Of a stretch of DNA of 27,612 nt, positions 7,190 through 27,612 are shown piece after piece. Source of the DNA: a virus; IMG/VR virus record IMGVR_UViG_3300034120_002861, positions 1-27,612 of that record; one strand, given 5' to 3'. A program made the position numbers and the translations under genes. A model generated the notes under the pieces. It saw only the letters and a program-made list of their open reading frames with translations. It ran no database searches and was not told the origin of the DNA. Numbering within the stretch: position 1 is the first letter of the stretch; the number at the start of each line of letters is the position of its first letter.

Positions 7190-7210
7190 TGGCGGCGAGA
7201 GAGAGGTGAT

Positions 7211-7456: not shown

Positions 7457-7491
7457 CGGCAGGCGATGCGAGGAAAGGCAAGGAGCAGTTG

Positions 7492-12884: not shown

Positions 12885-13201
12885 GGGCGGCGACGGCCCC
12901 CGCCAGCAGGGCGCGGACCCGCCCCAGCCCGTGCCCGGTCGCGTCGGCGGCTCGGGATCCCCGGCGGGCACCGGGGGAGGACCACGCCCACCCCCGGGCG
13001 GCGGGTCGCCCCCGGTCGTGCATGAGGACGACAGGCGGGGCCGCGTGCGCCCTCCTCGCGCCGCCACGGTCGGCCCAGGGTCTTGACCCCGCGGGGCAGC
13101 GTCTCGCCCGCGTTGCCCGGCTCCGCAGCCCCGCCAGCAGCGACGCGCGACCAGGCACGCGACTGCGCCGCCCCTCCCCCGCCTCCCCCCCTCGGGCGCG
13201 C
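12885..13201 (+). other. GC-rich stretch without a defensible gene
   Basis: The composition is Pro/Gly/Arg-codon-like on every frame, with long C-runs on the plus strand. A minus-strand frame starts with an ATG overlapping the stop of the minus-strand gene at 13202 (ATGA) and stays open leftward past island 1. Its product is low complexity and I do not call it. No RNA gene is seen. Confidence 0.4.
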
Positions 13202-13882
13202 TCATCGCCCCCCAGCGCCCTCGCTCTTGGGGGGTGTCGGGGGACGCTCGCCACCCCCCCCCTCCCCCCCGCCGGCGGACCGATCAACGCTCTTGGGTCC
13301 GGATCCCTCCCCACGCGCGAGACGCGCGGCGACACGCTCGACGCCACCAGCACGCCACCCAGCCCGCAACAGTTCCTCCGGCGTGGCCCTCAGCATGGCC
13401 TGCGCGGCCTCCACCTGCGCCACGGACGTGACCACGCGACCACGGGCACGGGCAGCCGCAGACAAGAAGGGGGCAAGCGGCACCGGGATCAGGTCGGGCA
13501 CACCATCGACCCCGCCGGGGGCGGGCGGATCCCGCCGCCGCGGCGGCTTCGCGGGCGCCCGCTTGGGCAACTTCCCGCGCGCTCGGTCGTGCGCGGCGTC
13601 CCCCTCGGCCAGCGTTCTGCCCAGCAGGGCGCAGGGGCGGATGGCGACGTGCAGCACCACCCCCGCCGCGGTCGCCAGACGGACCAGTGAAGGCCAGTCC
13701 CTGCACCGCTGGCACCGGCGGCGGAACCGCGCCGGGTTGGGCCCGAGCCCCAGCCGCGCCGCCGCCCGACTCGCCAGACGCTGCGACTCGACCCACGCCA
13801 GCAGCGCGACGGCGACCACCTGCACGCCGTCACGTATCTGGCGAGGACTTGCTGCGGCGTACTGCCGAGTTCGATCAGGCAC
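13202..13882 (-). CDS. Minus-strand gene of unknown function
   Basis: 226 residues from a GTG at 13882; the frame is open further upstream to 14080, so the start is uncertain. Codon structure in this frame is good: third positions are mostly G or C while second positions are mixed. Plus-strand frames give low-complexity Pro/Arg products. The N-terminal part has RDGVQVVAVALLAWVESQRL and, after a CQRC pair, LVRLATAAGVVLHVAIRPC. The middle is Arg/Pro-rich. SVAQVEAAQAMLRATPEELL follows, and then a Gly-rich end. No family is recognised. It points against both islands and lies between them, so it may be a separately transcribed cargo or regulatory gene. Confidence 0.55.
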   Translation of the reverse strand: MPDRTRQYAAASPRQIRDGVQVVAVALLAWVESQRLASRAAARLGLGPNPARFRRRCQRCRDWPSLVRLATAAGVVLHVAIRPCALLGRTLAEGDAAHDRARGKLPKRAPAKPPRRRDPPAPGGVDGVPDLIPVPLAPFLSAAARARGRVVTSVAQVEAAQAMLRATPEELLRAGWRAGGVERVAARLARGEGSGPKSVDRSAGGGEGGGGERPPTPPKSEGAGGR

Positions 13883-13902
13883 CCTCGAGCGTAGTGGGAT
13901 CC

Positions 13903-13956
13903 GTGGTAGCCGTGGAAGCCGTGGAAGCCGTGGGAACGGTGGTAGCCGTGGAAGCC
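13903..13956 (+). repeat. Six 9-bp repeats, consensus GTGGWAGCC
   Basis: Units start at 13903, 13912, 13921, 13930, 13939 and 13948. Five read GTGGWAGCC and the fourth reads GTGGGAACG. They lie just upstream of the proposed start of the minus-strand gene. They could be operator-like sites, a slippage tract, or the coding start of a longer minus-strand protein. Confidence 0.8.
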
Positions 13957-14071
13957 GCCCACTGCGTGGAGTCGGCGTACGCTGCCGAAGCGGGTGAACC
14001 GCACCCCGGCCCACGCACGCGACATCGTGGGGGCCGGTTGGATGGCTCAGCGGCCCGCGGCGAGGTGTTCC

Positions 14072-14287
14072 ATGCGGCACGACAATCGAGAATGGTCGCT
14101 CCGGCTCGACCGCCCGACGTACTCAGCGGTTCGGCGTGTGCAGGCGCGGCTTGTCCTGCTCGACGGCGTGGCGATGCCGTTGGCGGACGTGGTCCAAGAG
14201 GCGGTCCGGGTGTATGAGCGCGAAGTCACGGCCCGCGCCAGTCAAGCGACCGCGCTACGCGGCGATGCTGCTCCCCGGGCGAAGTGA
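14072..14287 (+). CDS. Putative ribbon-helix-helix DNA-binding protein
   Basis: 71 residues from the ATG at 14072, which has a GAGGTG ribosome site 6 bp upstream. The frame is open further upstream, but the earlier GTG lacks a site. The sequence EWSLRLDRPTYSAVRRVQAR, then MPLADVVQEAVRVYEREV, fits the strand-helix-helix pattern of Arc/CopG-type repressors. These dimerise and place a beta ribbon in the major groove. It lies just before the second TTGCAG promoter and could control one or both island promoters. The fold is inferred from pattern only. Confidence 0.65.
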   Translation: MRHDNREWSLRLDRPTYSAVRRVQARLVLLDGVAMPLADVVQEAVRVYEREVTARASQATALRGDAAPRAK

Positions 14288-14308
14288 ACCGAAACTGATG
14301 TGCGACGC

Positions 14309-14337
14309 TTGCAGTACCGATACCATGGTGGTACACT
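14309..14337 (+). promoter_or_regulatory. Sigma70-type promoter, island 2
   Basis: TTGCAG (14309-14314), a 17-bp spacer, TACACT (14332-14337). The -35 region GCTTGCAGTA and the GGTACA around the -10 are shared with the promoter at 9780. The leader has a GGTGG/CCACC hairpin before the leader element. Confidence 0.72.
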
Positions 14338-14379
14338 CTGGTGGGGGCAACCACCTGCCCGCATCCCCCCGGGCTCAAG

Positions 14380-14394
14380 ATGGAGCGACCCATG
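14380..14394 (+). promoter_or_regulatory. Leader element ATGGAGCGACCCATG, copy 4
   Basis: Identical to the copy at 9848, about 4.5 kb away. Like copy 1 it follows a TTGCAG promoter, so promoter, leader hairpin and element form one repeated unit. Confidence 0.75.
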
Positions 14395-14799
14395 GTGTTG
14401 ACGCAGTTGGAAGGACATGCGGGGCGGCTCGACCCCGACACACGGTGCGCCGTGCAGCAGGTGAGTGCGGTTCTCGACTCGCTAGACCAGTGGCCCAGCG
14501 TGACGCTCGACGAGGCGGAGCGCAGCATCCGCACGTGGCTTTCCGGTTGGTTCATCTACCGAGGCGGCAGCCATGTTGCCATCCACACGCGGAGCGGCGG
14601 GCCCCGCCTCGGGCTGGTGACGGAGGCGACGGTGCAGCAGGCCCAAGAGGCCGCGTACGCGGTGCTGATGGCGTGGCTGCTGCGCGAGGAGGGCATGGAG
14701 CCGAGGTCGGCGGCCAAGGCCGTGGCCGAGTCCTACGGGCTGCCTGAGTTCGTCGGCTGGGCCCTCGACCGCATCGAGCGAGAAGGGGGGGCGGCGTGA
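14392..14799 (+). CDS. Unknown island 2 protein
   Basis: 135 residues from the leader-element ATG. It appears to have two parts. An alpha/beta region includes WLSGWFIYRGGSHVAIHTR, and a helical region has QQAQEAAYAVLMAWLLREEG followed by a charged end. It finishes IEREGGAA, close to the EGGAK ends of island 1, and its stop overlaps the next GTG (GTGA). No family is recognised. Confidence 0.65.
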   Translation: MVLTQLEGHAGRLDPDTRCAVQQVSAVLDSLDQWPSVTLDEAERSIRTWLSGWFIYRGGSHVAIHTRSGGPRLGLVTEATVQQAQEAAYAVLMAWLLREEGMEPRSAAKAVAESYGLPEFVGWALDRIEREGGAA

Positions 14800-15026
14800 C
14801 ACCCGAGCAACAACGCGACATGCTGCTGGAAGCCGCCATCAAGGTGCGGGACGCGCTCGACCGGGGCGACCACCCGGGCCCGCTTGCGTCGATCCTCGAC
14901 TCTGCCATCGCCGCGGCGCAGGCCGCCGAGTGGCGAGACCGTGCCGAGCGCGGCGAGCATCCCGGCCGCGGCTTCTGTCTGGAGCAGGCGCGACGGTGGG
15001 AACGCCACGCCGCCGCGACCCGCTGA
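14796..15026 (+). CDS. Small helical unknown protein, island 2
   Basis: 76 residues from a GTG overlapping the previous stop. It is entirely helical by eye and rich in Ala, Arg and Glu (PEQQRDMLLEAAIKVRDAL, then AEWRDRAERGEHPGR). The ribosome site is the G-run in GAAGGGGGGG. A terminator follows 29 bp after the stop. No family is recognised. Confidence 0.6.
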   Translation: MTPEQQRDMLLEAAIKVRDALDRGDHPGPLASILDSAIAAAQAAEWRDRAERGEHPGRGFCLEQARRWERHAAATR

Positions 15027-15054
15027 CCCGCCTCCAACAGCCCAGCAGCACGCC

Positions 15055-15079
15055 AAGCCCCCGCCGCCGGGGGCTTTTT
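15055..15079 (+). terminator. Rho-independent terminator, end of island 2
   Basis: AAGCCCCC (15055-15062) pairs with GGGGGCTT (15069-15076) around a 6-nt loop, with a T-run at 15075-15079. It is the strongest terminator in the window. Confidence 0.88.
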
Positions 15080-15838
15080 CGTGCGCCCGCCCCGGGGGAA
15101 ACCGCCGGAAGTCGCCCCCGACGTCGCCCGGCGCAGCCCTCGGAGTCGCTTCTGCGCCCGGTTGAAGCCGACAACCGCCGTTGTCAGGCTGATCAACCAC
15201 GCCGCGACCCGCCGCCGCCGCCGCGAGCCCGCCGCCGCCGCCCTCATCGAGTCGCCGCGGCCCGCCGGCGAGGGGCCAGGCCCCCCCAAGCACGCCGCCG
15301 CGGCCGCCGTCCTCCTCCTGGTCGCCGCCTGGGCGACGCCTGAGCGCCGCCTGAGCGACGCCGGACGCGACGCCAAGCCCGTGCCGCCGCCGAGGCCGGA
15401 TCCCGTCGCCGCCGCCACCCGTCGCCCGCTGCTGGCGATGGGATGGGGTCGCTTGCTCCGCCCCGTCGCCCTCCTCCTCCTCCTCGACCCCGTCGCCGTG
15501 CCGACCGCCCCGCCCGCCCCGCCCGCCACGACCACGCGACGACCGCCGCGAGGGGGACGCGACGCCGCCGACGCCCGCGCCGACCGGCCGCGCGGGCCCA
15601 ACGACGCGACGCCGCGGGGCCGACCGGGGGGTGGGGGGTGGCCGTCATCCCCGCTGGTTCCATCGCGCGGGGTGGGGGGGGGGGAATCCTGCCACGCCAT
15701 CACGATGTCCCCCCCGACGTCGTTGCGTTGTCACGGCGGGTTGTCCGGGGTTGTTGTGCGTGCCCCCTCCCCCCTCCCCGTCATTCGACTTGGTTCCATG
15801 CAGGGGAGGTGTCTGGTACCGTGGTGTGCGACCGGTTT
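15080..15838 (+). other. GC-rich, homopolymer-rich gap
   Basis: No gene is convincing here. Frames are open on both strands because stops are rare in this composition, and the products are Ala/Arg/Pro/Gly-rich. GCC runs fill 15160-15540. G-runs on the plus strand at 15626-15690 and C-runs at 15760-15780 could form G-quadruplexes on opposite strands. A perfect GACAAC/GTTGTC inverted repeat with a 4-nt loop lies near 15170. Confidence 0.4.
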
Positions 15839-15866
15839 TTGCGGATGCCGTTGTTGGCCCTACAGT
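15839..15866 (+). promoter_or_regulatory. Possible promoter of late region
   Basis: TTGCGG (15839-15844), a 16-bp spacer and TACAGT (15861-15866) lie 30 bp before the ATG at 15896. Both boxes are imperfect and the call rests on spacing and position. Confidence 0.35.
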
Positions 15867-15895
15867 GAGTCGCGAGTGCGGTTGAGGGCAGCCGC

Positions 15896-16498
15896 ATGTC
15901 TTACACGTCGTCCACCGAAGAACCAGCGATCCAGACTGTTGACCGGCGCCTTGTGGAGACTGTCCGCGAGCGTGCGGACCTTCGCGCCATTGTGACGGTG
16001 TTGGGTGAGGTGTGGGATAGTCGCGGGGCGATGGCGTTCGTGCCTGGGAAGGCGTTGATTGAACTGTGCCAGCAGCGGTGGGGCGTTCAGATTTGGGACG
16101 GGCACTCGTACTTGTGGCGGACGTTGTTGTTGCTGGAACACAAGCCGTCGGAGACGACGACGTTCCACGACGCGTACCGGCTGACGGCGTTGGGGCTGGC
16201 GGTGTGGCGTGCGTTGCAGATGTCGGTGCAGACGCAGGGGGAGACTGGCGTGATTCCGCGGTTCACGAACAAGCGTGGGCGGCAGGTTGGGAACGTGGAG
16301 GTGGAGGTTCCTGAGGAGGAGGAGGAGCGTGACGACGGGCTACGTCGGGACGCGGAGCCAGCGGATCACTACGACGACGACGAGCATCAGGAGCCGCCGG
16401 CGGAGAAGAAGCCGGTCGAGAAGCCGGATGCGGGGAAGGACGAGGGCGGCAATGTCGAGGTTCGGCCGACGCGGCGAGGGAAACGCGCTGGGGGGTGA
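15896..16498 (+). CDS. Putative wHTH protein with acidic tail
   Basis: 200 residues. Residues about 10-110 look like a helical, winged-helix-type domain (RLVETVRERADLRAIVTVL, ALIELCQQRWGVQ, then AYRLTALGLAVWRALQ). The rest is disordered and acidic (a five-Glu run followed by RDDG, then DHYDDDEHQEPP) and ends with a basic stretch RPTRRGKRAGG. It opens the late region and precedes a LuxR-type helix-turn-helix gene by 3 bp. It could be a late regulator or a terminase-associated DNA-binding protein. The ribosome site is weak (GAGGG). Confidence 0.65.
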   Translation: MSYTSSTEEPAIQTVDRRLVETVRERADLRAIVTVLGEVWDSRGAMAFVPGKALIELCQQRWGVQIWDGHSYLWRTLLLLEHKPSETTTFHDAYRLTALGLAVWRALQMSVQTQGETGVIPRFTNKRGRQVGNVEVEVPEEEEERDDGLRRDAEPADHYDDDEHQEPPAEKKPVEKPDAGKDEGGNVEVRPTRRGKRAGG

Positions 16499-16501
16499 GT
16501 C

Positions 16502-16789
16502 GTGGTCACGCTGGACCAGCGGAGAGCGTCTCGGATGCTTCGGCGGCTGACGCCTGGTCAGGCGTGGACTGTGCAGTTGTCGTTGAACGGGCTGACGTAC
16601 AAGCAGATTGCGGCGACGACGGCGGCAAGCGGGCCGGTGGTGGTGTCGCAGATCATGCGGCGAGCGAGGATCCGGCTAGGGCTCAGGACGACGACGCAGT
16701 TGATTGCGGTGGCGGTGGTGGCGGGGATGCGTCCATTTGACCGGACGATTGAGGCCAGAGTTGATCTTGGTTCACGTCTCCGGTCGTGA
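16502..16789 (+). CDS. LuxR/GerE-type helix-turn-helix protein
   Basis: 95 residues from a GTG. LTPGQAWTVQLSLNGLTYKQ (16-35), then IAATTAASGPVVVSQIMRRA and RIRLGLRTTTQLIAVAV, match the four-helix GerE/LuxR DNA-binding domain or sigma-4-like pattern (LTPxE, GxxxKxIA, KLGxxxRxQ). It has no sensor domain. A stand-alone protein of this kind at the head of the virion genes is a natural candidate for a late-gene activator. Its 3' end overlaps a minus-strand gene by 107 bp. Confidence 0.7.
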   Translation: MVTLDQRRASRMLRRLTPGQAWTVQLSLNGLTYKQIAATTAASGPVVVSQIMRRARIRLGLRTTTQLIAVAVVAGMRPFDRTIEARVDLGSRLRS

Positions 16790-17102
16790 GGGTTCGGACG
16801 GACCAGAGGACGCCTTCGTCGTTGCGGTTGGTGGGCCAGACGATGACGGTTCGGACGCGACCGCGTTCGACGTGGGTGACGCGGGCGACTGCGCCGGGCC
16901 AGAGGGCGTTGGGGCCGGAATGGAGCCAGGCGCCGCCGATGACGGAGATGATGGCCCCTTCGGCCAAGGCGGTGGCAAGCCACGGGGTGTCTGGGGCACG
17001 CTCGATGATGCTTGGAATGGCGTGTTCTGCCAGAGCCTGCTCGACGACCGACCGCATGCGGATGGCGGCGGAAGTCTTGACGCGAATGGGAGGCGTCGGC
17101 AT
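16683..17102 (-). CDS. Minus-strand gene of unknown function
   Basis: 139 residues. The minus-strand frame has strong codon bias toward C-ending codons and a protein-like sequence: an N-terminal helical part (AAIRMRSVVEQALAEHAIPS), a hydrophobic centre (LAEGAIISVIGGAWLHSGPN), strands (VARVTHVERGRVRTVIVWP) and a Pro-rich end. It may be a small virion or adaptor-type protein, but no family is recognised. It faces the other late genes and overlaps the LuxR-type gene tail to tail. The opposite strand reads as poor protein. No strong ribosome site is seen. Confidence 0.65.
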   Translation of the reverse strand: MPTPPIRVKTSAAIRMRSVVEQALAEHAIPSIIERAPDTPWLATALAEGAIISVIGGAWLHSGPNALWPGAVARVTHVERGRVRTVIVWPTNRNDEGVLWSVRTLTTGDVNQDQLWPQSSGQMDASPPPPPPQSTASSS

Positions 17103-17116
17103 GTTGGCCTATTGTT

Positions 17117-17140
17117 GGGCGGGACATTCCGCCCGGGCTT
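17117..17140 (+). repeat. Late-region repeat, copy 1
   Basis: The 23-bp sequence at 17118-17140 is identical to 21957-21979. It contains a hairpin: GGGCGG (17117-17122), loop GACATT, CCGCCC. It lies 24 bp before the first virion-type gene, between that gene and the divergent minus-strand gene. A near copy in inverted orientation is at 27393-27418. Confidence 0.85.
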
Positions 17141-17164
17141 GGTTCAAGAGCCGGAGCGTCTGTC

Positions 17165-17821
17165 ATGCCCATTGAACCACGGATTGTCGTTCCGCCGCAC
17201 GTAGCGATCACGTCGCTGCGGTCGCCGTTTATGCCCATTGGCGGCCCGCACATTATGACCAGCACGACGGCGTTGGCGTCGTACGCGACGTACGAGCATG
17301 CTCGAGACGAGTGGGGCAACACGGCGGCGATTCGGGTGGGCGACATTGCGGACGGCGCGAACGTGGCGTTGGCGTTCATCGTGCATGCGTTGAACGGGAG
17401 CGACGCGAACAACCTGGTGGCGTCGGCCCGGGTGTGGATTGCGATGAAGGCCGGTTCCGGCGTGGCAAACTCCAACCCCGGAGCCAAGCCGCGGGCCAAC
17501 CGGCTGGCGGTTCCGGTGCTGGACTTGGCGATCACGGCGGGCAACCTGGCTGTTGACGTGTCGGTCGACAATCCGGATGACCTGTTCCAGATGCCCGTGC
17601 CGGTCAACGCGGCGTCGCGGAAGTTTGCGGACACGATCAGCGCGGCCGCGGGCGATTGGACGCTCAACGGGGCCAAGGTGGTCGGTCCCAGCGCGGCTGA
17701 CGGCTTGGTGATGCTGGTGTTTGACCGCGCCAACGCCGACAAGATCATCGTGAACACGGTCGTCAACGACGGTGGCACCAACACGGCGCGTGGCATCACG
17801 TGCCTGATGGCGACGTTCTGA
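17165..17821 (+). CDS. Putative virion protein
   Basis: 218 residues, beta-rich with many Ala, Val and Asn and few charged clusters, as in capsid-associated or fibre proteins (AIRVGDIADGANVALAFIVH, PVLDLAITAGNLAVDVSVDN). It has a GGAG ribosome site and lies 20 bp before the large SGNH-like gene. No family is recognised. A structural role is inferred from composition and place. Confidence 0.6.
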   Translation: MPIEPRIVVPPHVAITSLRSPFMPIGGPHIMTSTTALASYATYEHARDEWGNTAAIRVGDIADGANVALAFIVHALNGSDANNLVASARVWIAMKAGSGVANSNPGAKPRANRLAVPVLDLAITAGNLAVDVSVDNPDDLFQMPVPVNAASRKFADTISAAAGDWTLNGAKVVGPSAADGLVMLVFDRANADKIIVNTVVNDGGTNTARGITCLMATF

Positions 17822-17841
17822 GCCCGCGAAAGGGGTGGCCC

Positions 17842-20025
17842 ATGAGCATTGGTCTGATCAATGAGGCTCCGCTGGCTCGATTCGTGAGCGCGATGCGGGC
17901 ACAGCGCACGTTCATTACCGGGTTCCTCAACTCGAACGGGGAGAAGGACGGGTACGGACTCATTGACGCCATCCAGTGGAGCCTTGCGCAAAGCGGGATC
18001 AAGTTGTACGGCTGCACGCCGATCACGCCGATGTGCAAGGACGAAGTTACCGGCGTGCAGAGCGTGTCGGAAACCATGGGGGGCACCGTGCGGGGCTTGA
18101 ACGGCCATTATCGCGTGCCGGTCAGCACGGCCACAGGCGGGTACGCCAATCCGAGCAACGTGTCGGAGGCTGTCGCAACCATCACCAGCATCCCGACGGT
18201 GACGGCGGGCAATGCTCACACCATTACGGTCAACAACACGTACGCGGTTGGCAATTGGGTCATGCTCACCGCCACCAACTCGACGCCCGCCATCAACAGC
18301 GTGGTGCAAGTGACGGCGGCCACCGCAACGACGTTCACGTACACGGCGACAGTCACGGTCACGGTCGCCGGCACGGCTGGCAACGCTCAGCGTCACTATC
18401 GGTCAGTCGTGCCCAATCTGGCCGTGTTCTACGAGCATGGCGAAGGGCGGAATCCGGAGAACTATTCCGGAGCCTACAGCCCCCTGCTGACGGTCAACGC
18501 GTACTCGTACGGTGCCGCGCAAGGCGGCAATGGCGTCGAAATTTCGGCTACGCCACCGAATCCGATGTGTTTCAACCCCGCCAACGCCATTACCGTCGAC
18601 TACTGGTACGGAAACGCAACGCCGTCCGGCGGGACGTTTACGCCCAAGGCGACGCAGGGCAGCGTGCCCAACATCGACGTTCCGTTCACGGACACGTCGG
18701 CCATCACGGTTGCGTCGGGCACGCCGTCCAAGATGCTGCGGGCGACCAAAACGCTCAGCGCGCTTGGCACTGTCAACACCAAACTCCGGATTGGGTATGG
18801 GACCGGATCCGTACCGCCGACAGGTCAGGTGTTTTTGGGCTACATGCTTGCGTGGGAAACCAACGCCACCACGGGCGCGGTCGTGTCGCGGTTCTGGGCG
18901 AGGGGCGGGCAATCGGTTCACGATTTTGCCTTTGCCATTCGCCGCACGGACGGCGAGCAGATCACCCCCCAAACGCTCATTCACTTTTTCCAGATGATGG
19001 CGAGGCCCGCGCAGGCGGCCAATCAAAAGCCCATCTGCCTGTTCGTGATCAACGACGGGTCCAACTACACCACGGAAACGTCCAACAGCGTCAACGCCGA
19101 CGAGACGGCCTCCAGCACCAACGCCTACATCGACGACGCAAGCCTGGTAATCGGGTTTGTCATTGCCGCGTGGCTGCAATGCGGGTTTGACGCCGAAAAC
19201 ATCGTGTTTGTCGTGCATCCCGACCATCCCAACACAGTGGGGACGTCGGAACCCAAGCAGGCCGACTACCGATCCATCGCGATCCCGACGCTGGCCAACC
19301 GGTTCCCTCGCAACGTGACCGGCATCAACGCCAACAGCCTTTGGACGACGGCGGCCTTGATTAACGCCGGGGCTGGCAACGTGTCCTATTACGCAAGCAG
19401 CCGCGTCGCCAACGCGATTTCGGCGGTGGCCGTGTCAAGTGGCGGGACGTCGACCATCACGACCATTGGAGCCTTGGCTGGCATCGCCAACGGCTCGTTT
19501 GTGACCATCACCGCTACCAACAGCACGCCCAACGTGAACGGTACGTGGCAGGTGTCAAACGTAGCCAGCAACACGTTTACCATCCCGGTGTCCACCGTGA
19601 CCGTGGCGGGAACTAGCGGCTGGGCCAGCATCGCCAACGTCAGCAGCGTGGCCGTGTCGGCCGGTGGGACTTCCACCATCACGACCACCAGCGCGTTGGG
19701 ATTGACCAACGGCGACCACGTGATCATCAACGGCACCAACAGCACGCCCAACGTCAACGGCACGTGGCAGGTGTCAAACGTCAGCGGAAGCACGTTCCGG
19801 ATTCCCGTTGCCAACGTCACGGTCGCTGGAACGACCGGACAGGCGTGGACGTTGGACCCATACCACTTGGCCGTGCCCACGACCACGGGCGGCAGCGGAG
19901 ACGTGAACGGGTACCGGACGTACTGGGCCGCGATTTGGACGCAGTTGCTGGCCGCCAACCGATTCATCGGAGTGGGGCGGGACTTGGATCGTCAGGTCAT
20001 TCGCGGGCGCGGCAACACGCGGTAA
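17842..20025 (+). CDS. SGNH-hydrolase-like virion protein with beta repeats
   Basis: 727 residues, with an AAAGGGG ribosome site. The core resembles SGNH/GDSL hydrolases: a block I-like TGFLNSNG (Ser31, with LNS in place of GDS), GGQSVHDFAF near 356-365, INDGSN near 402-408, and HPDHPN near 457-462. These would give the Ser, Gly, Asn and Asp-His set. Into it are inserted a beta repeat at about 110-185 and two more at about 525-672. Each of the last two contains TNSTPNVNGTWQVSNV and ends in TVAGT. They resemble the small beta domain often seen in phage tail and fibre proteins. A carbohydrate deacetylase or tailspike role is plausible. The catalytic call is moderate because block I is altered. 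No signal peptide is seen. Confidence 0.6.
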   Translation: MSIGLINEAPLARFVSAMRAQRTFITGFLNSNGEKDGYGLIDAIQWSLAQSGIKLYGCTPITPMCKDEVTGVQSVSETMGGTVRGLNGHYRVPVSTATGGYANPSNVSEAVATITSIPTVTAGNAHTITVNNTYAVGNWVMLTATNSTPAINSVVQVTAATATTFTYTATVTVTVAGTAGNAQRHYRSVVPNLAVFYEHGEGRNPENYSGAYSPLLTVNAYSYGAAQGGNGVEISATPPNPMCFNPANAITVDYWYGNATPSGGTFTPKATQGSVPNIDVPFTDTSAITVASGTPSKMLRATKTLSALGTVNTKLRIGYGTGSVPPTGQVFLGYMLAWETNATTGAVVSRFWARGGQSVHDFAFAIRRTDGEQITPQTLIHFFQMMARPAQAANQKPICLFVINDGSNYTTETSNSVNADETASSTNAYIDDASLVIGFVIAAWLQCGFDAENIVFVVHPDHPNTVGTSEPKQADYRSIAIPTLANRFPRNVTGINANSLWTTAALINAGAGNVSYYASSRVANAISAVAVSSGGTSTITTIGALAGIANGSFVTITATNSTPNVNGTWQVSNVASNTFTIPVSTVTVAGTSGWASIANVSSVAVSAGGTSTITTTSALGLTNGDHVIINGTNSTPNVNGTWQVSNVSGSTFRIPVANVTVAGTTGQAWTLDPYHLAVPTTTGGSGDVNGYRTYWAAIWTQLLAANRFIGVGRDLDRQVIRGRGNTR

Positions 20026-20034
20026 GGAGCGGAC

Positions 20035-20388
20035 ATGGAAGCGTTGCACCGAAAGCAGGTCGGTGACGACGAGACGCAGGTCAAGCGCGTGGGACGCCCC
20101 AACTCCGGGCTCAACACGCTCATTGGCATCCTGAGTCAGTCGCCGGCGGACTTGGAGATCGGCAAGGACACGCGGCCCATCATTCAGCAGGCCGTGCAAA
20201 CCATCGTCAAGTCGTTGAACGCCACCGACGCCGTCGGAAACCCAACGCCGACGGCGTCCAACGTGGCGCTCAAGATTGTGGCTCACATGTACGGCGAGCC
20301 GTCGTCACGCCAGCAGAACGAGGGCCAGGTGTCAATCACACTGGTGTATCCCGATGGCCGCCCAGCCAACTGCGATCACCGCGATTGA
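20035..20388 (+). CDS. Candidate terminase small subunit
   Basis: 117 residues, with an excellent ribosome site (AAGGAGCGGAC). It has a basic, polar N-terminus (QVKRVGRPNSGLNTLIGILS), then helices (PIIQQAVQTIVKSLNAT, ASNVALKIVAHMYGE) and a final strand. It overlaps the large terminase start by 35 bp, where small terminase subunits usually lie. I cannot match a known small-terminase family, so the role rests on position and size. Confidence 0.5.
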   Translation: MEALHRKQVGDDETQVKRVGRPNSGLNTLIGILSQSPADLEIGKDTRPIIQQAVQTIVKSLNATDAVGNPTPTASNVALKIVAHMYGEPSSRQQNEGQVSITLVYPDGRPANCDHRD

Positions 20389-21940
20389 GCCGCACAAGGG
20401 CCAGCGGAACATCTGGAGCGACACGACGCGACACCGCATTGTCCGGTGTGGGCGGCGCTTCGGAAAGTCGACGCTGGGCATCATTGAAACCATCGGGGAC
20501 TTGGCTCGCCCGGGGGTCGCCTCGCGCAACAACTACCACGTCGGCTGGTTCACGCCCGAGTACAAGTACCTCGACGTCGTGTGGGAAACGCTGACAAGGA
20601 CGCTGGCTCCCGCCATCAAACGGGTCAACAACGCCAAGTTCCGCATGGAACTGGTCAACGGCAGCACCGTGGAGGCGTGGACGCTCAACAACAACCTCGA
20701 CGCGGGCCGCAGCCGCAAGTACCACAAGATCATCGTGGATGAGGCGGGCCTGATTCCCAACCTCCGGCGGTGGTGGGACGCGTCCGCCAGCGCGACACTG
20801 ATCGACTTTGAAGGGCGGGCGTTGTTCCTTGGCACGCCCAACCCCATCGGTCCGGACTTTGACTCGTTCTTTGACGCCGCCTCCGACGACCCGGACTGGG
20901 CGGGCATTACCGCCACCACATTTGACAACAACTTTCTGCCGGAGCAGGAGTTGGAGCGGATTCGCGACCGTCGTTCCAAGATGCCTGACTGGCTGTGGTT
21001 GCAGGAATACATGGCCGAGCCGTGCGACGCCGCGGCGGGGTTCTTTCCCCGGGCGTTGGTGTCGCGGCTCATGGCCCAGACCATCGCACCCATCTACGAG
21101 GGCGACTTGGACCTGCCAGACGTCAGCGCGTCGTTCAAGGACCACCTGCTTATCAGCCGAGACGTCAAACTGGCCGAGTGGAAGCAGCAGGACGGGCGTG
21201 GAAAGTGGAAACTGTGGTTCCACCCCGATGACGTTGACGCAATCCGCCAGTTCACGTACGTTGCCGGCTGCGACATCGGTGCGGGTGTCGGATCCAGCAA
21301 CACCGTGTTTTCCGTGTTCAGCCCCGACCAAGGAGCCAAGATTGCCGAATACTCCAGCCCGCTGGTCGGTCCGGAGGTGGCCGCCCGCGAAATGGCCGTC
21401 TTTGGCTTGTGGCTTCAAGGAGCCACTAAAGCCGTCCGGGTGTGCCCGGAAACCAACGGCGGTGCAGGCCAGGCGTTTGTCAAGGCCATGATGGACATTC
21501 AATACCCGGCTCTGTTCACGACGAGGATTGGCGGGGCCAAGAAGGACGCCGCAATAACCAAGACGTCGCTGGAAGTCGGCTGGCGTTCGTCCCAGCCGGG
21601 CAAGATTGCCATGTTGACGGCCTACCAGACCGCCCTGTCCAACGGGTCGTTCTACAACCCGTCCGCGGCGGCCTTGACCGAGTGCATGACCTACGCCTTT
21701 GACAAGCGGGGCAGTCTGGTGTCCATCAAGAGAGACATGGACCCGACGGACGACATTGCACGGGTGCCGCACGGCGACAAAGTCATTGCCGACGGGCTTG
21801 CGTGGCACGCCGCGGCGCACGCGCCGGAGCCCCCCGAGCCGCCCAAGCCCGAGCATGATCCGACGACGTTTGCGTACCGCAAGGCGCAACGGCAAGCAGC
21901 CCAGACACGCCAAGGGCGTGGCTGCTACGGGTACGTCTAG
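20354..21940 (+). CDS. terL: Terminase large subunit
   Basis: 528 residues. The packaging ATPase has Walker A GRRFGKST (33-40), Walker B KIIVDE (125-130) and motif III ALFLGTPNP (156-164). The nuclease domain has YVAGCDIGAG with Asp307, VCPETNGG with Glu366, and HGDKVIADG with Asp475 and Asp480. These are the expected motor and RNase H-like nuclease parts of TerL, which cuts concatemeric DNA and drives it through the portal. The start at 20354 is chosen because residues upstream belong to the overlapping gene's other frame. The protein ends with a Pro/Gln/Arg-rich tail. Confidence 0.95.
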   Translation: MAAQPTAITAIEPHKGQRNIWSDTTRHRIVRCGRRFGKSTLGIIETIGDLARPGVASRNNYHVGWFTPEYKYLDVVWETLTRTLAPAIKRVNNAKFRMELVNGSTVEAWTLNNNLDAGRSRKYHKIIVDEAGLIPNLRRWWDASASATLIDFEGRALFLGTPNPIGPDFDSFFDAASDDPDWAGITATTFDNNFLPEQELERIRDRRSKMPDWLWLQEYMAEPCDAAAGFFPRALVSRLMAQTIAPIYEGDLDLPDVSASFKDHLLISRDVKLAEWKQQDGRGKWKLWFHPDDVDAIRQFTYVAGCDIGAGVGSSNTVFSVFSPDQGAKIAEYSSPLVGPEVAAREMAVFGLWLQGATKAVRVCPETNGGAGQAFVKAMMDIQYPALFTTRIGGAKKDAAITKTSLEVGWRSSQPGKIAMLTAYQTALSNGSFYNPSAAALTECMTYAFDKRGSLVSIKRDMDPTDDIARVPHGDKVIADGLAWHAAAHAPEPPEPPKPEHDPTTFAYRKAQRQAAQTRQGRGCYGYV

Positions 21941-21956
21941 GCCGGACCTATCATGC

Positions 21957-21979
21957 GGCGGGACATTCCGCCCGGGCTT
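21957..21979 (+). repeat. Late-region repeat, copy 2
   Basis: Identical over 23 bp to 17118-17140. GGCGG, loop GACATT, CCGCC form the hairpin, followed by CGGGCTTT. It lies 16 bp after the large terminase stop and 20 bp before the portal ATG, so it could attenuate or reset transcription between them. Confidence 0.85.
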
Positions 21980-21999
21980 TGCACACGCGAGGTCCGGTC

Positions 22000-23826
22000 A
22001 TGGCACGCATCGAGCCCAAGCGAATCGTCACGGCAGCCCGCCACGGGTGGTACCGACGAGACTGGATTCGCCACAATCAACTGCTGGCAGAGCAGCAACT
22101 GGCCGGACCCTACTTCCGGACCATGATCAATCCGGAAGCCCAGAAGATCGGCTCGACGCAGCCAATCAGCGTGCTGGGCTCGATGATCGACGCGTACTTG
22201 CCCCAACTGGTGTCGTCCCGGTGGACGGTGGACTGCACGTCCAAGTTGACCGGGTTCCAGGGTGAAGCCGCCATGCGAGGGCTTCGGCTGACCCACTTGT
22301 GCGAGGAACTGAAGATCCCCGCGCAGGACCGGCTGGTGACGCTCGACACGCTGCTGTGCGGCGAGGGCATGTGGCGGTGCGGGCTCAAGGACGGACCCGA
22401 CTGGGTGCGGGTCGATTCCGCGACGTACGACCCGGGCCAGCCGTTTGCCATTCGCGTGCCGCCGGGCAATCTGACGACCGACCCGATTGCCAGACACCCC
22501 GACGAGCGTCGCTTTATTGGCGACCGGTTCATTGCCGACAGGCAAGTGCTGCTCGAGGCGGGCATTGGGGATCCCGACTACATCTCGACCCTGCCCAACA
22601 TCACCAACCAGCAGGTTCACTTGGATCCGTCGGCCCCGCAGCGGTACGCCGGACTGACGTCCGACGCGTTGCTGAGCGACGACTTGATCGAACTGTGGTA
22701 CATGATGGTGTGGGATGGCAACCGGCGACTGGAAATGGTCGTGGCCAACCTTGATCAGACGGACCGGTTCATCATCGAACCACGCGAGTACGAAGGCTAC
22801 GAACTGGGCCCCTACGAGTCTGTCCGGATCTACGAGCATCCCAACGACGCCAACGGCATCAGTCTGGCCATGCGGCTCATGGACCTGCACCTCGCGGTCC
22901 AGCGGGTTGCGGAACGCACCATTCGGCACGTCCTCAAGACCAAACGCAACCCCGTGTACAGCGAGGAGATCGGCAAGGAAACGGCCATGGCCATCAACGA
23001 GGCCGCGGACGACGAGCCGATCCCGGGCGACCCCAACAGCGTCAAGGAGATGGTCACTGGCGGCATGATTGACCAGTTCCAGCGCGGCATGACCGTTCTG
23101 TTGAACCTGGCAGACAACGCCGGAGCCAGTTTGCAGCAGTCGGCCGGACGCAGCGGCGTTGCGGACACCGCAACCGAGGCGAGCATCATTGCTGGCAAGG
23201 CCAACAACCTCATCCAGATGATCCGTGGCCCGCTTCAGCAGGCCCGCCGCAACATCATCAAGCGGCTGTCGTGGTACGAGGACACGGCTCCGGTGCGAGA
23301 GCAGTTGTACTCGATCACCGTAGGACCGGGCCTCAAGTCCAACGTGGTGTACGACCCCGCGACCCGCGAAGGCGACTTCAGCGACTTCACGTACGACTGC
23401 GGCATCGAGTTTGCGACCAGCATGGATCAGGCCACGCGGCTGGTGCGGTTGCAGCAGATCGTGGCGGTCCTGCCCAACTTTGTGCAAATGACGGCCATGT
23501 TTGGCGGCGACATTCGGGCCGCCCTCAACCTGTTCACAAAGGAATACCCGGAACTGGCGGACATCTTCCCGACTGGCGTCGAGGAGACGCTGAAGATGCT
23601 GATGACTCCGGGCATGATGCCGCCCAACGGCCAAGTGCCGGTCACGTTGCAGCAACAGATGATGCAGATGATGCAGGCCCAAATGATCGCGCCGGCTGGC
23701 GCGTCGCCCGCAGGCGCTCGCAACCCCGGAACCAACTCGCAAGGGATGCAACTGGCCCAGATGGCCAGGGACGCATCAGGAACCAACCAGAGAGCCAGCA
23801 TGGCCCCCGGCCGGACGCTTGGGTGA
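22000..23826 (+). CDS. Portal protein
   Basis: 608 residues, straight after the large terminase. The N-terminal part is typical (YRRDWIRHNQLLAEQQLAGP, PISVLGSMIDAYLPQLVS). A long helical stretch near 350-440 includes VADTATEASIIAGKANNLIQ followed by GPLQQARRNIIKRLSWY, which fits the portal stem and its late helices. The C-terminus is Met/Gln-rich (QQQMMQMMQAQM) and ends in a low-complexity tail. Portals form the dodecameric ring through which TerL packages DNA and to which the neck attaches. Assignment rests on order, size and these segments. Confidence 0.8.
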   Translation: MARIEPKRIVTAARHGWYRRDWIRHNQLLAEQQLAGPYFRTMINPEAQKIGSTQPISVLGSMIDAYLPQLVSSRWTVDCTSKLTGFQGEAAMRGLRLTHLCEELKIPAQDRLVTLDTLLCGEGMWRCGLKDGPDWVRVDSATYDPGQPFAIRVPPGNLTTDPIARHPDERRFIGDRFIADRQVLLEAGIGDPDYISTLPNITNQQVHLDPSAPQRYAGLTSDALLSDDLIELWYMMVWDGNRRLEMVVANLDQTDRFIIEPREYEGYELGPYESVRIYEHPNDANGISLAMRLMDLHLAVQRVAERTIRHVLKTKRNPVYSEEIGKETAMAINEAADDEPIPGDPNSVKEMVTGGMIDQFQRGMTVLLNLADNAGASLQQSAGRSGVADTATEASIIAGKANNLIQMIRGPLQQARRNIIKRLSWYEDTAPVREQLYSITVGPGLKSNVVYDPATREGDFSDFTYDCGIEFATSMDQATRLVRLQQIVAVLPNFVQMTAMFGGDIRAALNLFTKEYPELADIFPTGVEETLKMLMTPGMMPPNGQVPVTLQQQMMQMMQAQMIAPAGASPAGARNPGTNSQGMQLAQMARDASGTNQRASMAPGRTLG

Positions 23827-23832
23827 TTACCT

Positions 23833-24306
23833 ATGCCAATGTACCCCCGTCGTTGCGTTTCGTGCAATCACACGTTTGAGGACTACGTGTCCGCATCCGT
23901 GGCCAAGCGGGCCAAGTCCATGTCGACGCTCCTCAAGTGCCCGCAGTGCGACTCGCCCACGGAGCCGCAGTTTGAACGTCTTGACATCAAGCAAGGCTTT
24001 CGCACGTTCATCGGCAAGCAGTCCATGTCGCTCACGGAAGGGTGCGGACCCGGCGGCGTTGCCACGTTTCGGCAGCGAATGGGTGGCGACTTGGCCAACT
24101 GCATCCAAAGCGATGGCCGCGTGATGTTCGACGACTCGCGGCAGCGAGAACAGTGGGATCGCCGCAAGGAACAACTGGAAACCGATGATTGGCGGCGGCT
24201 GGAGAACGAAGGCAAACTCAAGCCCACGCCATCGCCCCTGACAACCGCGCAACGCGAGGAAGTTCTGTCGACCATCTACCGCGAGGCCAACCGATTGTCG
24301 GAGTAA
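23833..24306 (+). CDS. Zinc-ribbon protein, FmdB-like N-terminus
   Basis: 157 residues. MPMYPRRCVSCNHTFED, then KCPQCDSP, gives a CxxC...CxxC zinc ribbon (Cys8, 11, 36, 39) like FmdB-type ribbons. A charged helical half follows, with EQWDRRKEQLETDDWRRLEN and a C-terminal EEVLSTIYREANRLSE. It lies between the portal and scaffold genes, where phages often carry small head-assembly or regulatory proteins. The function is not shown. Confidence 0.7.
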   Translation: MPMYPRRCVSCNHTFEDYVSASVAKRAKSMSTLLKCPQCDSPTEPQFERLDIKQGFRTFIGKQSMSLTEGCGPGGVATFRQRMGGDLANCIQSDGRVMFDDSRQREQWDRRKEQLETDDWRRLENEGKLKPTPSPLTTAQREEVLSTIYREANRLSE

Positions 24307-24329
24307 ACGTGTCACAAGTATGACACGTT
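24306..24329 (+). promoter_or_regulatory. Perfect inverted repeat, operator or hairpin
   Basis: AACGTGTCA (24306-24314) and TGACACGTT (24321-24329) are perfectly complementary, with a 6-nt spacer CAAGTA. There is no T-run. It lies between the zinc-ribbon gene's stop and the promoter at 24328, so a dimeric regulator's operator is as likely as an RNA hairpin. Confidence 0.7.
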
Positions 24330-24354
24330 ACAACACCACGGAGTGTGGTATAAA
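24328..24354 (+). promoter_or_regulatory. Extended -10 promoter for head genes
   Basis: TGGTATAAAT (24346-24355) gives a TGn extended -10 with TATAAA at 24349-24354. A weak TTACAA lies 15 bp upstream. It is among the few AT-rich spots in the window and lies 65 bp before the scaffold gene, with the inverted repeat at 24306 next to it. Confidence 0.55.
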
Positions 24355-24419
24355 TCGTCCGCATGCAATCGTGATGCGCGTCATGCACCGCGCACAGCAG
24401 GAATCACGGAGCGGACACA

Positions 24420-25439
24420 ATGGACGAAACAACGGTCGACAACTCCCAGCAGGAGCCCGGTGAACCCAATGCGGCGGTTCAAGAAACCGTTGCGCCTACG
24501 CCTGCGGATTATGCACGCGACGGCGCGACCGCTATCTCCGCAGCGTTTGACGCGCTGGACAGCGGCGGGGAGGCGGAAGCGTCAGATGCGGACAAGACGC
24601 TTCAGGAACACGGAATCACGCCGGACCAGGTTGCTCAGCCTGCACCGGCAGGCGAGAAAGTTTCGGTTCCTGCGGCGGAGGCACCGGCCGCAACCAATGA
24701 CGCAGCCTTGGACAAGTTGCTTGCGGCTTTGGGCGTGACCAACGCGCCCGCACCAACGGCGGCCCAGCCAACTGACGCCAAGTCGCCCGCGACGACGGCG
24801 GCTGCGACTGATCCCAAGGCGGCCCCGGACGCGAAAGCGTCGTTGGACGACCACGCCAACTCGTTCGTCAAGTTCATGCGGGACGAGTTTGGCGAGGATG
24901 CGGCCAAGGCGGCCACGGCGTTTGCCGAGGGCATCACGGCCAAGAACAAGCAGATCGCTTCGTCGCTGGAACGAATGGAGTCGCTGACCCGCGACGTGGC
25001 CCTCCAGCACGACCCAATGAACGTCGCCATTGACGGCAAGGCGTCTGGCGACACAACCAACAAGACCCTGTACGGCGATTCGTGGATGAAGGCGACGCCG
25101 GACCAGAGAAGCAACAGAGAACTGGTCGCACAGACCATGGTCAAGATGGCTCAGAGTGCCATCAGCAAGGGGCAGACGATCACGCCCGATCTGGAGCAGG
25201 TGTTGTTCAACGCCGCCACGCATCACGTGGCAAAGAACACGCCGGCCGGAAAGTCCGCACGGACCGAAGTGATCAACCGCTCGGCTGCACAGCGTCAGGG
25301 ACAACGCGTTGCGGTTCCGGGCAGGGCCACGGCATCTGGACTTCCCATGTCGCGGTCCGAGGCAAACAAGAGCGGGAGGCAGAGTTTGGCGGACGTCGGG
25401 TCTGCGGCCATTGCGGCCGCACTCGGCCAACTTGGGTGA
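24420..25439 (+). CDS. Putative scaffolding protein
   Basis: 339 residues, acidic and Ala/Pro/Thr-rich in the first 150, with no globular fold apparent. A more ordered helical part follows (DDHANSFVKFMRDEFGEDAA, IASSLERMESL), then a basic C-terminus (GRATASGLPMSRSEANKSGR). Position just before the major capsid gene, low complexity and the acidic-to-basic layout are typical of head scaffolds, which guide capsid assembly and then leave. The ribosome site is GGAGCGGAC, nearly the same as before the small terminase candidate. Confidence 0.65.
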   Translation: MDETTVDNSQQEPGEPNAAVQETVAPTPADYARDGATAISAAFDALDSGGEAEASDADKTLQEHGITPDQVAQPAPAGEKVSVPAAEAPAATNDAALDKLLAALGVTNAPAPTAAQPTDAKSPATTAAATDPKAAPDAKASLDDHANSFVKFMRDEFGEDAAKAATAFAEGITAKNKQIASSLERMESLTRDVALQHDPMNVAIDGKASGDTTNKTLYGDSWMKATPDQRSNRELVAQTMVKMAQSAISKGQTITPDLEQVLFNAATHHVAKNTPAGKSARTEVINRSAAQRQGQRVAVPGRATASGLPMSRSEANKSGRQSLADVGSAAIAAALGQLG

Positions 25440-25472
25440 TCCGGAGCAGGCGGAGCCCGGAAGGACTAAGCA

Positions 25473-26609
25473 ATGTCGACGTTTTCTACTGGTGTGGCGC
25501 TCAGTGCGCTGTCGGGGGTCGTGAACGCGGCCCTGCCGACGATTGACAAGGACATTCAGGAAACCCAGCGTTTCAACCGGATGCCCGGCAACATGCTGCT
25601 CATCGACGGGGCAGAGGAGCAGGACACGACCGGCAACATCTACGGCTGGAACATTCGCGTTCGCGAGGCCGCCGGCTCGACGCAAGCCCTGCGTGCCTTC
25701 CAAGCCACGCAGTACCAGGTCGGCTACTACACGGAACGGTTCACCGTCCCGTTCCGCGACAAGACCAACACGGCGTTTGCGTTCGACCGGCTGGAAATCA
25801 GCCGCAACCGGGCAGCCCCCAACCGCATCTACGACCTGCTCAAGGAGCGTCGGTCGGCGCAGTTGGAGAACATCGCCAACGTCAACGAGATCGAGGTCTT
25901 TGGCGCGCCGTTCGACCAGAACGACGACTCCGCCATTTTCGGCCTTGAGTGCTGGCTTCGCCGGTCCATGGCGTCCGACGGCTCGTTTGTCGCTCTGCCG
26001 GACGGGGGCTACAACGGCACCTACTGGCGAGGCACCGGCAACGCCACTCCCATTGCCATCCTTGGCGGACAGGACACCTCGCAGTTGGCCCTTGAGCGTG
26101 CCCGCAACTACGTGATGACCGTGGGCAACACCTACGTCGACACGACCCTTCTCGATGCCGTCAAGCGGTGCATCAACGAGACGATGTTCGAGATGGTCCC
26201 GGGCCTGACCGGCAAGTCCGGCCCCAGCATGGGCGGCGACGACGCATTGATCTTCTGGGATCCCGAGTACGACGATCAGTACGACTCGTTCCTGGCGGCC
26301 GGTCCCGACCCCCGGTACCGCTCCGGCGGCGGCGACTACTACCCGGGCAAGAAGCGCACCCTGTGGGGCGCGCAACTCGTCCGTACCCCCGCGCTCCGCA
26401 ACAAGGCCGACCGCCCCATCTTCGGCCTGCGCCGCTCGATGCTTCAGGTCATCAAGGGCCGCGGCATGTGGATGGTTGACGGCGACGGCGTCGTTCCCGG
26501 CGCACACAACGTCGTCTACAAGCCGCGCGACTACACGTGGCAGATGATCTGCCGCGATTTCCGCAAGGGCGGTTTCCGCATCCACTCCACGTTCACCACC
26601 GGCTCCTAA
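25473..26609 (+). CDS. Putative major capsid protein
   Basis: 378 residues, with a GGAAGGAC ribosome site. It follows the scaffold gene by 33 bp. The N-terminal arm is polar. The core mixes strands and helices (NIYGWNIRVREA, YYTERFTVPFRDKTNTAFAF) with Trp/Tyr-rich loops, and the end is basic (TWQMICRDFRKGGFRIHSTF). A HK97-type fold is expected from size and context, but I cannot match a specific capsid family. A strong hairpin follows the gene. Confidence 0.7.
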   Translation: MSTFSTGVALSALSGVVNAALPTIDKDIQETQRFNRMPGNMLLIDGAEEQDTTGNIYGWNIRVREAAGSTQALRAFQATQYQVGYYTERFTVPFRDKTNTAFAFDRLEISRNRAAPNRIYDLLKERRSAQLENIANVNEIEVFGAPFDQNDDSAIFGLECWLRRSMASDGSFVALPDGGYNGTYWRGTGNATPIAILGGQDTSQLALERARNYVMTVGNTYVDTTLLDAVKRCINETMFEMVPGLTGKSGPSMGGDDALIFWDPEYDDQYDSFLAAGPDPRYRSGGGDYYPGKKRTLWGAQLVRTPALRNKADRPIFGLRRSMLQVIKGRGMWMVDGDGVVPGAHNVVYKPRDYTWQMICRDFRKGGFRIHSTFTTGS

Positions 26610-26647
26610 CGCGCACCGTCGCGCGTTGGTGCTTCTGACATTCACGT

Positions 26648-26669
26648 CCCCGCGTCCGCAGACGCGGGG
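26648..26669 (+). terminator. Strong hairpin after capsid gene, no T-run
   Basis: CCCCGCGTC (26648-26656) pairs perfectly with GACGCGGGG (26661-26669) around CGCA. No T-run follows. It may protect the 3' end of the capsid message or partly stop transcription, giving the next gene a lower level. Confidence 0.55.
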
Positions 26670-26695
26670 GCGGTCACAGATCAAAGGGCACAGAC

Positions 26696-27346
26696 ATGAA
26701 CCAACTTCCCGGCCATCAGATTCAGTTTCCTCGCATTGCTCATTACTCAGGCTACAACATCAACGCCACCGCGGGCTCCCGCACGGCGCGCAACGCCGAT
26801 CTCCGGCGCGGCGACGTGTTGCAGTTCGACCCCTTCAACCACGAACGCGTGGCCGCCAGCGCGTCCTACACCGGCTCCTACGGCTCGCCCAGCGTCAGCG
26901 ACACGCTCAACCTCGGCATGGACTACGTCGTGTCTGTGTCGACGACATCGTTCAACACGCCGATTGGCGTCGTGGTTGAGACTCCTGACACGGCCATCAA
27001 CGACCTCGACCCGTTGGTGGCCAACAAGCGTCGCGGCGGCATTGTCCGTGTCGCAACCACCGGGCTGGTCCAGGCTCGCGTCCGGTTGGGCGTGGCTACT
27101 GGCTCGCAGTCCACCGTAAAGGGCCAGACGCGTCTGTCGCTCAAGGCGGGCGAAGTGGCGTTCCAACTGTTCAACACGTCGGCCACTGTCGACACCTCCA
27201 ACTTGGTGTGCGGCGCGGCGTCCGGCACGCCGGAAGTCGTGGCAGCGCGTGTTCACGCCATCGCGATGGAAAGCGTCACCGACTCCGGTTCCGCCAGCGG
27301 CACCGAGTACCTGATGTGGGTGCAGTTGATCCAGCCGCTGCACTGA
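26696..27346 (+). CDS. Putative head decoration or minor virion protein
   Basis: 216 residues directly downstream of the capsid gene. It is beta-rich, with small residues and few Cys (SVSDTLNLGMDYVVSVSTTS, RGGIVRVATTGLVQARVRLG, GTEYLMWVQLIQPLH). This is common for capsid decoration proteins or fibres encoded after the major capsid gene. No family is recognised. The ribosome site is an AAAGGG, 7 bp from the ATG. Confidence 0.6.
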   Translation: MNQLPGHQIQFPRIAHYSGYNINATAGSRTARNADLRRGDVLQFDPFNHERVAASASYTGSYGSPSVSDTLNLGMDYVVSVSTTSFNTPIGVVVETPDTAINDLDPLVANKRRGGIVRVATTGLVQARVRLGVATGSQSTVKGQTRLSLKAGEVAFQLFNTSATVDTSNLVCGAASGTPEVVAARVHAIAMESVTDSGSASGTEYLMWVQLIQPLH

Positions 27347-27392
27347 CGTCGGCGGGCTAACGCCTGCACCACGAGCCTGCTACGCCGGTTCA

Positions 27393-27418
27393 GAACCAAG
27401 CCCAGGGCGGAATGTTCC
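27393..27418 (-). repeat. Late-region repeat, copy 3 (inverted)
   Basis: Read on the minus strand, this matches 17118-17140 in the ACATTCCGCCC core and GGGCTT, with one extra T between them. It also shares the next bases GGTTC with copy 1 only. Its orientation is opposite to copies 1 and 2. It lies between the last complete head gene and the next gene. Confidence 0.7.
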
Positions 27419-27472
27419 CACTGACCCCCACAAGCAATCTGGACCGGCGCTTTGTTTGAAGTTTCCGACACC

Positions 27473-27612
27473 ATGTCGTTCCGCGACATCCAGATCCGCG
27501 TGGCGGAACTGGCCGGTGTCGCGTCGTACGACTCCGCGGGTTTGGCCGTGCCGCCAACCAACGCGTACAACCTTGACCGACTGAAGCGGGCGATCACCGA
27601 CGCCGTTCGGCA
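27473..27612 (+). CDS. Start of neck or head-completion type gene (3' cut)
   Basis: 46 residues are visible before the window ends. The start MSFRDIQIRVAELAGVASYD, then VPPTNAYNLDRLKRAITDAV, resembles a phage virion family I have seen after capsid genes (TFRDLQIRVAEYLGVA, PPT, then a helix). The exact role is uncertain; an adaptor or tail-completion protein is likely from position. No strong ribosome site precedes this ATG, and an in-frame TTG lies seven codons upstream. Confidence 0.65.
   Translation, partial: MSFRDIQIRVAELAGVASYDSAGLAVPPTNAYNLDRLKRAITDAVR

Follow-up and report, generated by a model that had tools for sequence, protein, structure and literature searches.

The phage protein P0001 belongs, on the evidence of sequence profiles, to a family that it shares with a marine phage protein (P0002) and with proteins from bacterial genomes, and this family is related to the GDSL/SGNH lipases and acylhydrolases. 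P0001 is most likely a sugar O-acetyl esterase associated with adsorption; we infer its activity, substrate and virion location by analogy with those SGNH-bearing receptor-binding proteins which take acetyl groups off surface sugars, helped by the position of the P0002 gene beside a tail-fibre gene. Throughout, the window is the whole stretch of DNA that was analysed, a 27,612-base virus record with 66.6% GC.

The gene and its neighbourhood

The open frame of P0001 occupies 17842-20025 on the plus strand and gives 727 aa from its ATG (an alternative GTG start at 17800 adds 14 aa), which bears out the gene position given in an earlier sequence-only reading. That reading also placed the gene before the terminase, as is true here: just after it comes a 117-aa ORF, in the small terminase gene's place and without a match, and then the large terminase gene. 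The order of genes is as follows.

17165..17821, plus strand: upstream neighbour gene, 218 aa
17842..20025, plus strand: P0001 gene, encoding a divergent 727-aa SGNH-type protein interrupted by three beta repeats
20276..21940, plus strand: large terminase gene (phrog_2, E 1.2e-28)
21979..23826, plus strand: portal gene, SU10-portal-like (PF23899, E 8.3e-6; its 24.9 bits fall short of the curated cut-off of 30)

The 218-aa upstream protein has no family match and is unlike all six late proteins with which it was compared. The P0001 gene is the first in the run ahead of the terminase and does not adjoin any recognised fibre gene.

Two contigs from metagenome 3300044626 correspond to parts of the window. 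L002 is identical to window positions 13598-24850, and L003, a 53.7 kb record that agrees with positions 24854-27612 at all but one of 2759 bases, is probably a continuation of the same phage. When the terminase, the portal and the protein at 25473-26606 were searched in viral contigs, only these two were recovered. L003 also carries a fibre candidate, away from the P0001 gene: a tail-fibre start at L003:10264-10578, with Mtd_N (E 3.6e-15), collagen-like GxT repeats and Pfam and many PHROG fibre matches.

Several other features of the window can be listed. An AAA/SMC-like ATPase at 72-1337 matches phrog_1499 (E 2.9e-70), a phrog of unknown function. Two long frames of 431 and 428 aa overlap on the same strand at 5267-6562 and 5271-6557, the first being a C-5 cytosine methylase, and 15-base G-rich tandem repeats form two arrays at 7210-7464. 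The three kilobases at 13001-16000 have 70-76% GC, ahead of late genes at about 63%, and GC skew is negative at 13-14 and 15-16 kb.

Relatives and family placement

The core of P0001 matches no family of Pfam, NCBIfam or PHROG, and no solved structure in any way worth the name; what the protein does give are weak matches in its repeats or matches at chance level. Searches with tblastn of 50,697 phage records (at E 0.01 and E 10) and of 72,556 plasmid records (E 10) returned no relative, nor did a direct search of genome contigs; in viral contigs, the direct search returned only L002, the same sequence as the window. Core and repeat pieces searched separately against phages gave two chance-level matches for one and none for the other. 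In 29 of the 392 genomes from the phylum of genome G003 there is a match at E <= 1, and the two best of these (7.9e-5 and 1.6e-4) lie within the P0001 repeats only.

In viral contigs, a degenerate DNA pattern that covers blocks II and III hits five loci. One is the phage itself (L154) and another is a relative carrying P0002 (L152); the remaining three (L151, L153 and L155) hold no such protein and were rejected as relatives. A second DNA pattern recovered only L152, and neither the P0002 query nor the alignment query found anything further.

L152:2493-3953, minus strand: P0002, marine phage protein, 487 aa

BLASTP aligns P0001 with P0002 at E 3e-15 (28% identity over 265 aa), and P0002 in turn matches PF13472 at E 1.5e-6, with 29.3 bits, just under the 32.9-bit cut-off. 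Unlike the P0001 gene before the terminase, the P0002 gene directly follows a tail-fibre gene (many PHROG tail-fibre matches), and an endolysin-type gene is nearby. Searches with P0002 against phages and against the PDB found nothing. In the class of genome G401, P0002 has relatives in 7 of 397 genomes at E <= 0.01; three matches at the same threshold in the 392 genomes of G003's phylum were short and weak, and were left out of the family. Merging pieces of the same ORF leaves nine distinct bacterial-genome proteins, which together with P0002 make up a ten-member alignment (A3).

The members of A3 have a GDS-type block I, an ND-type block III and a D-x-x-H-type block V, with Glu at the Asp position in P0002. 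At E <= 0.01, four of the ten match PF13472, three match PF00657 and one matches PF19040. The A3 profile finds a solved SGNH protein (PDB 2hsj, E 3.8e-4, aligned at block V), and it finds P0001 both with hmmsearch (E 1.1e-22, residues 227-503) and with hhalign (probability 98.2, residues 226-500). Since the profile reaches P0001 at this E-value and four of ten members match PF13472, the SGNH homology of P0001 follows by way of the family. The sequence-only reading had called the protein an SGNH-like enzyme; this relationship is supported through the profile and the relatives, with P0001's own core matching no curated family. As a query, P0001 itself finds six relatives besides P0002 at E <= 1e-3 (L162, L161, L164, L163, L168 and L166). 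Judged from these sequences, the proteins form an unnamed SGNH-type family common to phages and bacterial genomes. The family is probably mainly from Planctomycetota, and the host of the P0001 phage may possibly belong there too.

That P0001 is not an SGNH protein, and that its blocks are a chance resemblance, is very improbable. Such a reading would fit the lack of matches for the core and an AlphaFold model of P0001 alone that gave nothing usable (pLDDT 33.5, very low confidence), but it is largely refuted by the match to P0002, by the profile match and by the family's own matches to PF13472 and PF00657. A second model, of P0002 with pieces of P0001, was also of very low confidence (pLDDT 39.3), and at these values both were set aside as evidence on Ser-His geometry. 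Foldseek with the second model gives as best match, and as the one match at E <= 0.001, the CE2 enzyme 4xvh (E 7.5e-4). Among the best 50 matches we count eight that we take to be SGNH-type enzymes, and the first have TM-scores of about 0.25-0.30. The resemblance of this low-confidence P0002 model to SGNH-type enzymes would lend weak support at most. In trees, P0001 falls beside P0002 with support of 0.82 (FastTree) and 59 (ultrafast bootstrap); its branch is very long, at 1.76 to 1.78 substitutions per site, and the grouping is not relied on.

Most of the bacterial-genome relatives look secreted in our own reading of the sequences, having a hydrophobic N-terminus and a C-terminal tail, and several of the tails appear dockerin-like or PEP-CTERM-like, which is one ground for taking the family to be probably from Planctomycetota. 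P0001 could likewise be a secreted or lysis-stage enzyme that acts outside the virion, as the signal-bearing cellular relatives with dockerin-like tails would, and the place of its gene, first in the run before the terminase and away from the L003 fibre candidate, would suit this. We regard it as unlikely: neither P0001 nor P0002 has an evident signal peptide at its start (read by eye), and a tail-fibre gene lies next to P0002.

One bacterial-genome relative stands out by its length (748 aa, L161:354-2597, also seen as L172:360-2600). Its block I reads SDSN and it has a long C-terminal extension. We do not claim it as a prophage protein; its six neighbours are without a PHROG match.

Catalytic blocks and inserted repeats

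The elements of P0001, in order along the plus strand, are given below.

17926..17937, plus strand: block I, LNSN (residues 29-32, Ser31), placed by profile and MAFFT
18163..18393, plus strand: repeat R1 (about residues 108-184), beta module of FCCH-like type
18520..19350, plus strand: core, residues 227-503, found by the family profile: a beta-rich part followed by blocks II and III and an HP motif
18904..18915, plus strand: block II candidate GGQS (residues 355-358), aligned with the GG[QKR]-type block of relatives
19048..19065, plus strand: block III candidate INDGSN (residues 403-408), candidate oxyanion Asn being Asn408
19411..19632, plus strand: repeat R2 (residues 524-597), FCCH-like, from DNA and protein comparison
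19633..19854, plus strand: repeat R3 (residues 598-671), FCCH-like, 49 of 69 residues identical to R2
19855..19869, plus strand: block V candidate DPYHL (residues 672-676; Asp672, His675), the only D-x-x-H in the protein

Block I does read LNSN rather than GDSN, with its Ser at residue 31, as had been noticed from the sequence. The family's block I profile, placed on P0001 residues 6-39, gives a best-domain score of 2.8, where the highest of 1000 shuffles reaches 2.7, and MAFFT puts S31-N32 beneath the SN of all eight relatives supplied; Ser31 thus aligns, weakly, with the family's GDS serine. All 12 relatives (the ten of A3, L175 and L176) have [GS]DS where P0001 has LNS, so that among 13 family proteins the block I Asp is missing from P0001 alone; the block I Gly is gone too.

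The Gly and Asn blocks, which the sequence-only reading had described as kept, do align with the family. In block II the Gly is retained as Gly355/356 (RGGQS, residues 354-358), and in block III G406 and N408 fall in family-invariant columns, where the next invariant Asp is replaced by Tyr409 (NY for ND). Four of six family-invariant columns in the core are kept (G345, G406, N408 and W444) and two are changed (L336 for Arg, Y409 for Asp).

The same reading had an Asp-His block with its catalytic His at 461. A D-x-x-H pair does exist, at 672-675, and not at 461: residue 461 is not a His, the His residues after 400 being 459, 462, 626 and 675, and His462 lies within an HP motif shared by most of the family. 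As block V, Asp672-His675 is a candidate that rests on lying where block V should be and on a shuffle count, D..HL arising in the last 60 residues in 3 of 5000 shuffles of residues 513-727. The family's block V profile gives -2.0 bits on the DPYHL region, against up to 6.4 in shuffles.

The changes in the blocks raise the question of activity. The block I Gly and Asp and the block III Asp, all gone in P0001, are kept in the relatives aligned, which possibly argues against an active enzyme. P0001 might then be a catalytically retired SGNH protein turned binding protein, its blocks I and III decayed and its FCCH-like modules doing the binding. The loss of a block I Asp in P0001 alone among the 13 proteins, the loss of the invariant block III Asp, the very long branch and the crowding of the active-site loops by three extra modules all favour this; against it, candidates exist for all four name-giving residues (Ser31, Gly355/356, Asn408 and His675) and for Asp672, which a retired enzyme need not keep. 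Moreover, AlgX and AlgJ have block I as GTSYS, without the Asp, and are active according to PMC9487903, and so the loss of this Asp is not proof of a dead enzyme. On balance, we consider the retired enzyme rather unlikely.

The three beta repeats are related, as the sequence-only reading had it. Identities are 30/64 for R1-R2 and 28/70 for R1-R3, and none of 1000 shuffles scores as high as either of these pairs or as R2-R3. R2 and R3, in tandem, are 75% identical in DNA over 133 nt, and the window contains exactly two copies of the 20-mer that had been quoted for them, one at 19543 and one at 19762. The repeats also interrupt the enzyme as proposed: profile and alignment place R1 between block I and the profile-matched core, and R2-R3 between the core and DPYHL. 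The proposal of a recent duplication does not hold, because dS between R2 and R3 is 0.90 and dN 0.30; moreover, 21 of the 49 identical residues use a different codon. By these sequence measures the tandem pair is old and under constraint, and the suggestion that the duplication reflects a change of host range is not supported. As to repeat number among related phages, a comparison suggested earlier, no differing phage was found, only the one identical contig (L002).

R3 matches Pfam E1_FCCH (PF16190) weakly, at E 0.0027 and 0.015. P0001 scores 18.2 bits against this family, below the curated cut-off of 29.5, and the repeats are therefore called FCCH-like rather than filed as members; no role in ubiquitin activation is implied. 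A 784-aa late protein at L003:4200-6554 has two E1_FCCH-like modules, with 36.2 bits, above the same cut-off, and R1-R3 are related to them, each of ten pairs scoring above 1000 shuffles. The kind of module in P0001 is thus, to judge by these comparisons, probably also present in another gene of the same virus.

None of the ten aligned relatives matches E1_FCCH at E <= 0.01, a weak test in that P0001's own match is also weak. In the A3 alignment R1-R3 are absent from all ten, and a long insertion is found only in L161, where a different beta-like stretch sits near the R1 site. This unrelated insert may hint that beta modules dock repeatedly in the loop.

Proposed function and comparison with known systems

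Taken as a whole, the reading of P0001 as a divergent SGNH-family phage protein, a sugar O-acetyl esterase acting in adsorption, is one that we favour with moderate confidence. The protein would follow the family layout, in which block I, the first strand, carries the nucleophile, a beta-rich domain comes next and blocks II, III and V come last; its putative active site would comprise Ser31, Asn408, a block II Gly (355 or 356) and Asp672-His675. It is predicted to remove O-acetyl or similar ester groups from host-envelope polysaccharide, as G7C gp63.1 and Possum gp66 do, and to take part in adsorption, within the virion or a fibre. The three FCCH-like modules would occupy loops that follow block I and immediately precede block V, and may serve as binding or spacer modules round the active site. 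A tentative variant is a remodelled site, suggested by the modules wedged in and by the loss of the block I Gly-Asp and the block III Asp: catalysis would be gated or aimed by modules in the protein's own catalytic loops, or the protein would possibly be a retired esterase turned sugar-binding head.

Compared with the GDSL-like lipases/acylhydrolases of PF13472 and PF00657 (SGNH superfamily, Pfam clan CL0264), P0001 has its candidate blocks in the same order (Ser, Gly, Asn, Asp-His) and its relatives match these families. P0001 differs in that it has no direct match, in its block I (LNSN) and block III (NY), and in having about 200 or more residues between blocks I and II, plus the three repeat modules.

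According to PMC13123978 and PMC9569702, the SGNH domains of phage receptor-binding proteins function as esterases or deacetylases. G7C gp63.1, gp66 of Pectobacterium phage Possum and the receptor-binding proteins of Klebsiella prophages share with P0001 a phage-encoded SGNH domain and the likely O-deacetylation of envelope sugars (same papers). Unlike these, P0001 has no recognised fibre or chaperone part, and its gene lies before the terminase; in 50,697 phage records P0001 has no sequence match up to E 10. NmApe1 and the CE2 enzymes, as described in PMC9487903, have a carbohydrate-binding domain inserted within or before the SGNH domain, and would resemble P0001 in having a beta domain inside or beside the SGNH fold; the extra modules of P0001, in contrast, are FCCH-like repeats and not known CBMs. 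In the open-licence PMC literature, searched by title and abstract start, we found no paper on the P0001 family or on a phage SGNH protein with FCCH-like insertions. We see in P0001 an unusual form of a tool already known from phages, rather than a new kind of system.

According to PMC13123978, SGNH deacetylases are widespread in phage receptor-binding proteins as an alternative to depolymerases. To the SGNH-type proteins P0001 adds an unnamed family found in phages and bacterial genomes, and it offers a test of how far block I may drift and of whether catalytic loops may host binding modules. Divergent phage enzymes can go unseen by Pfam, PHROG and NCBIfam and still find their place by way of one intermediate relative, here P0002.
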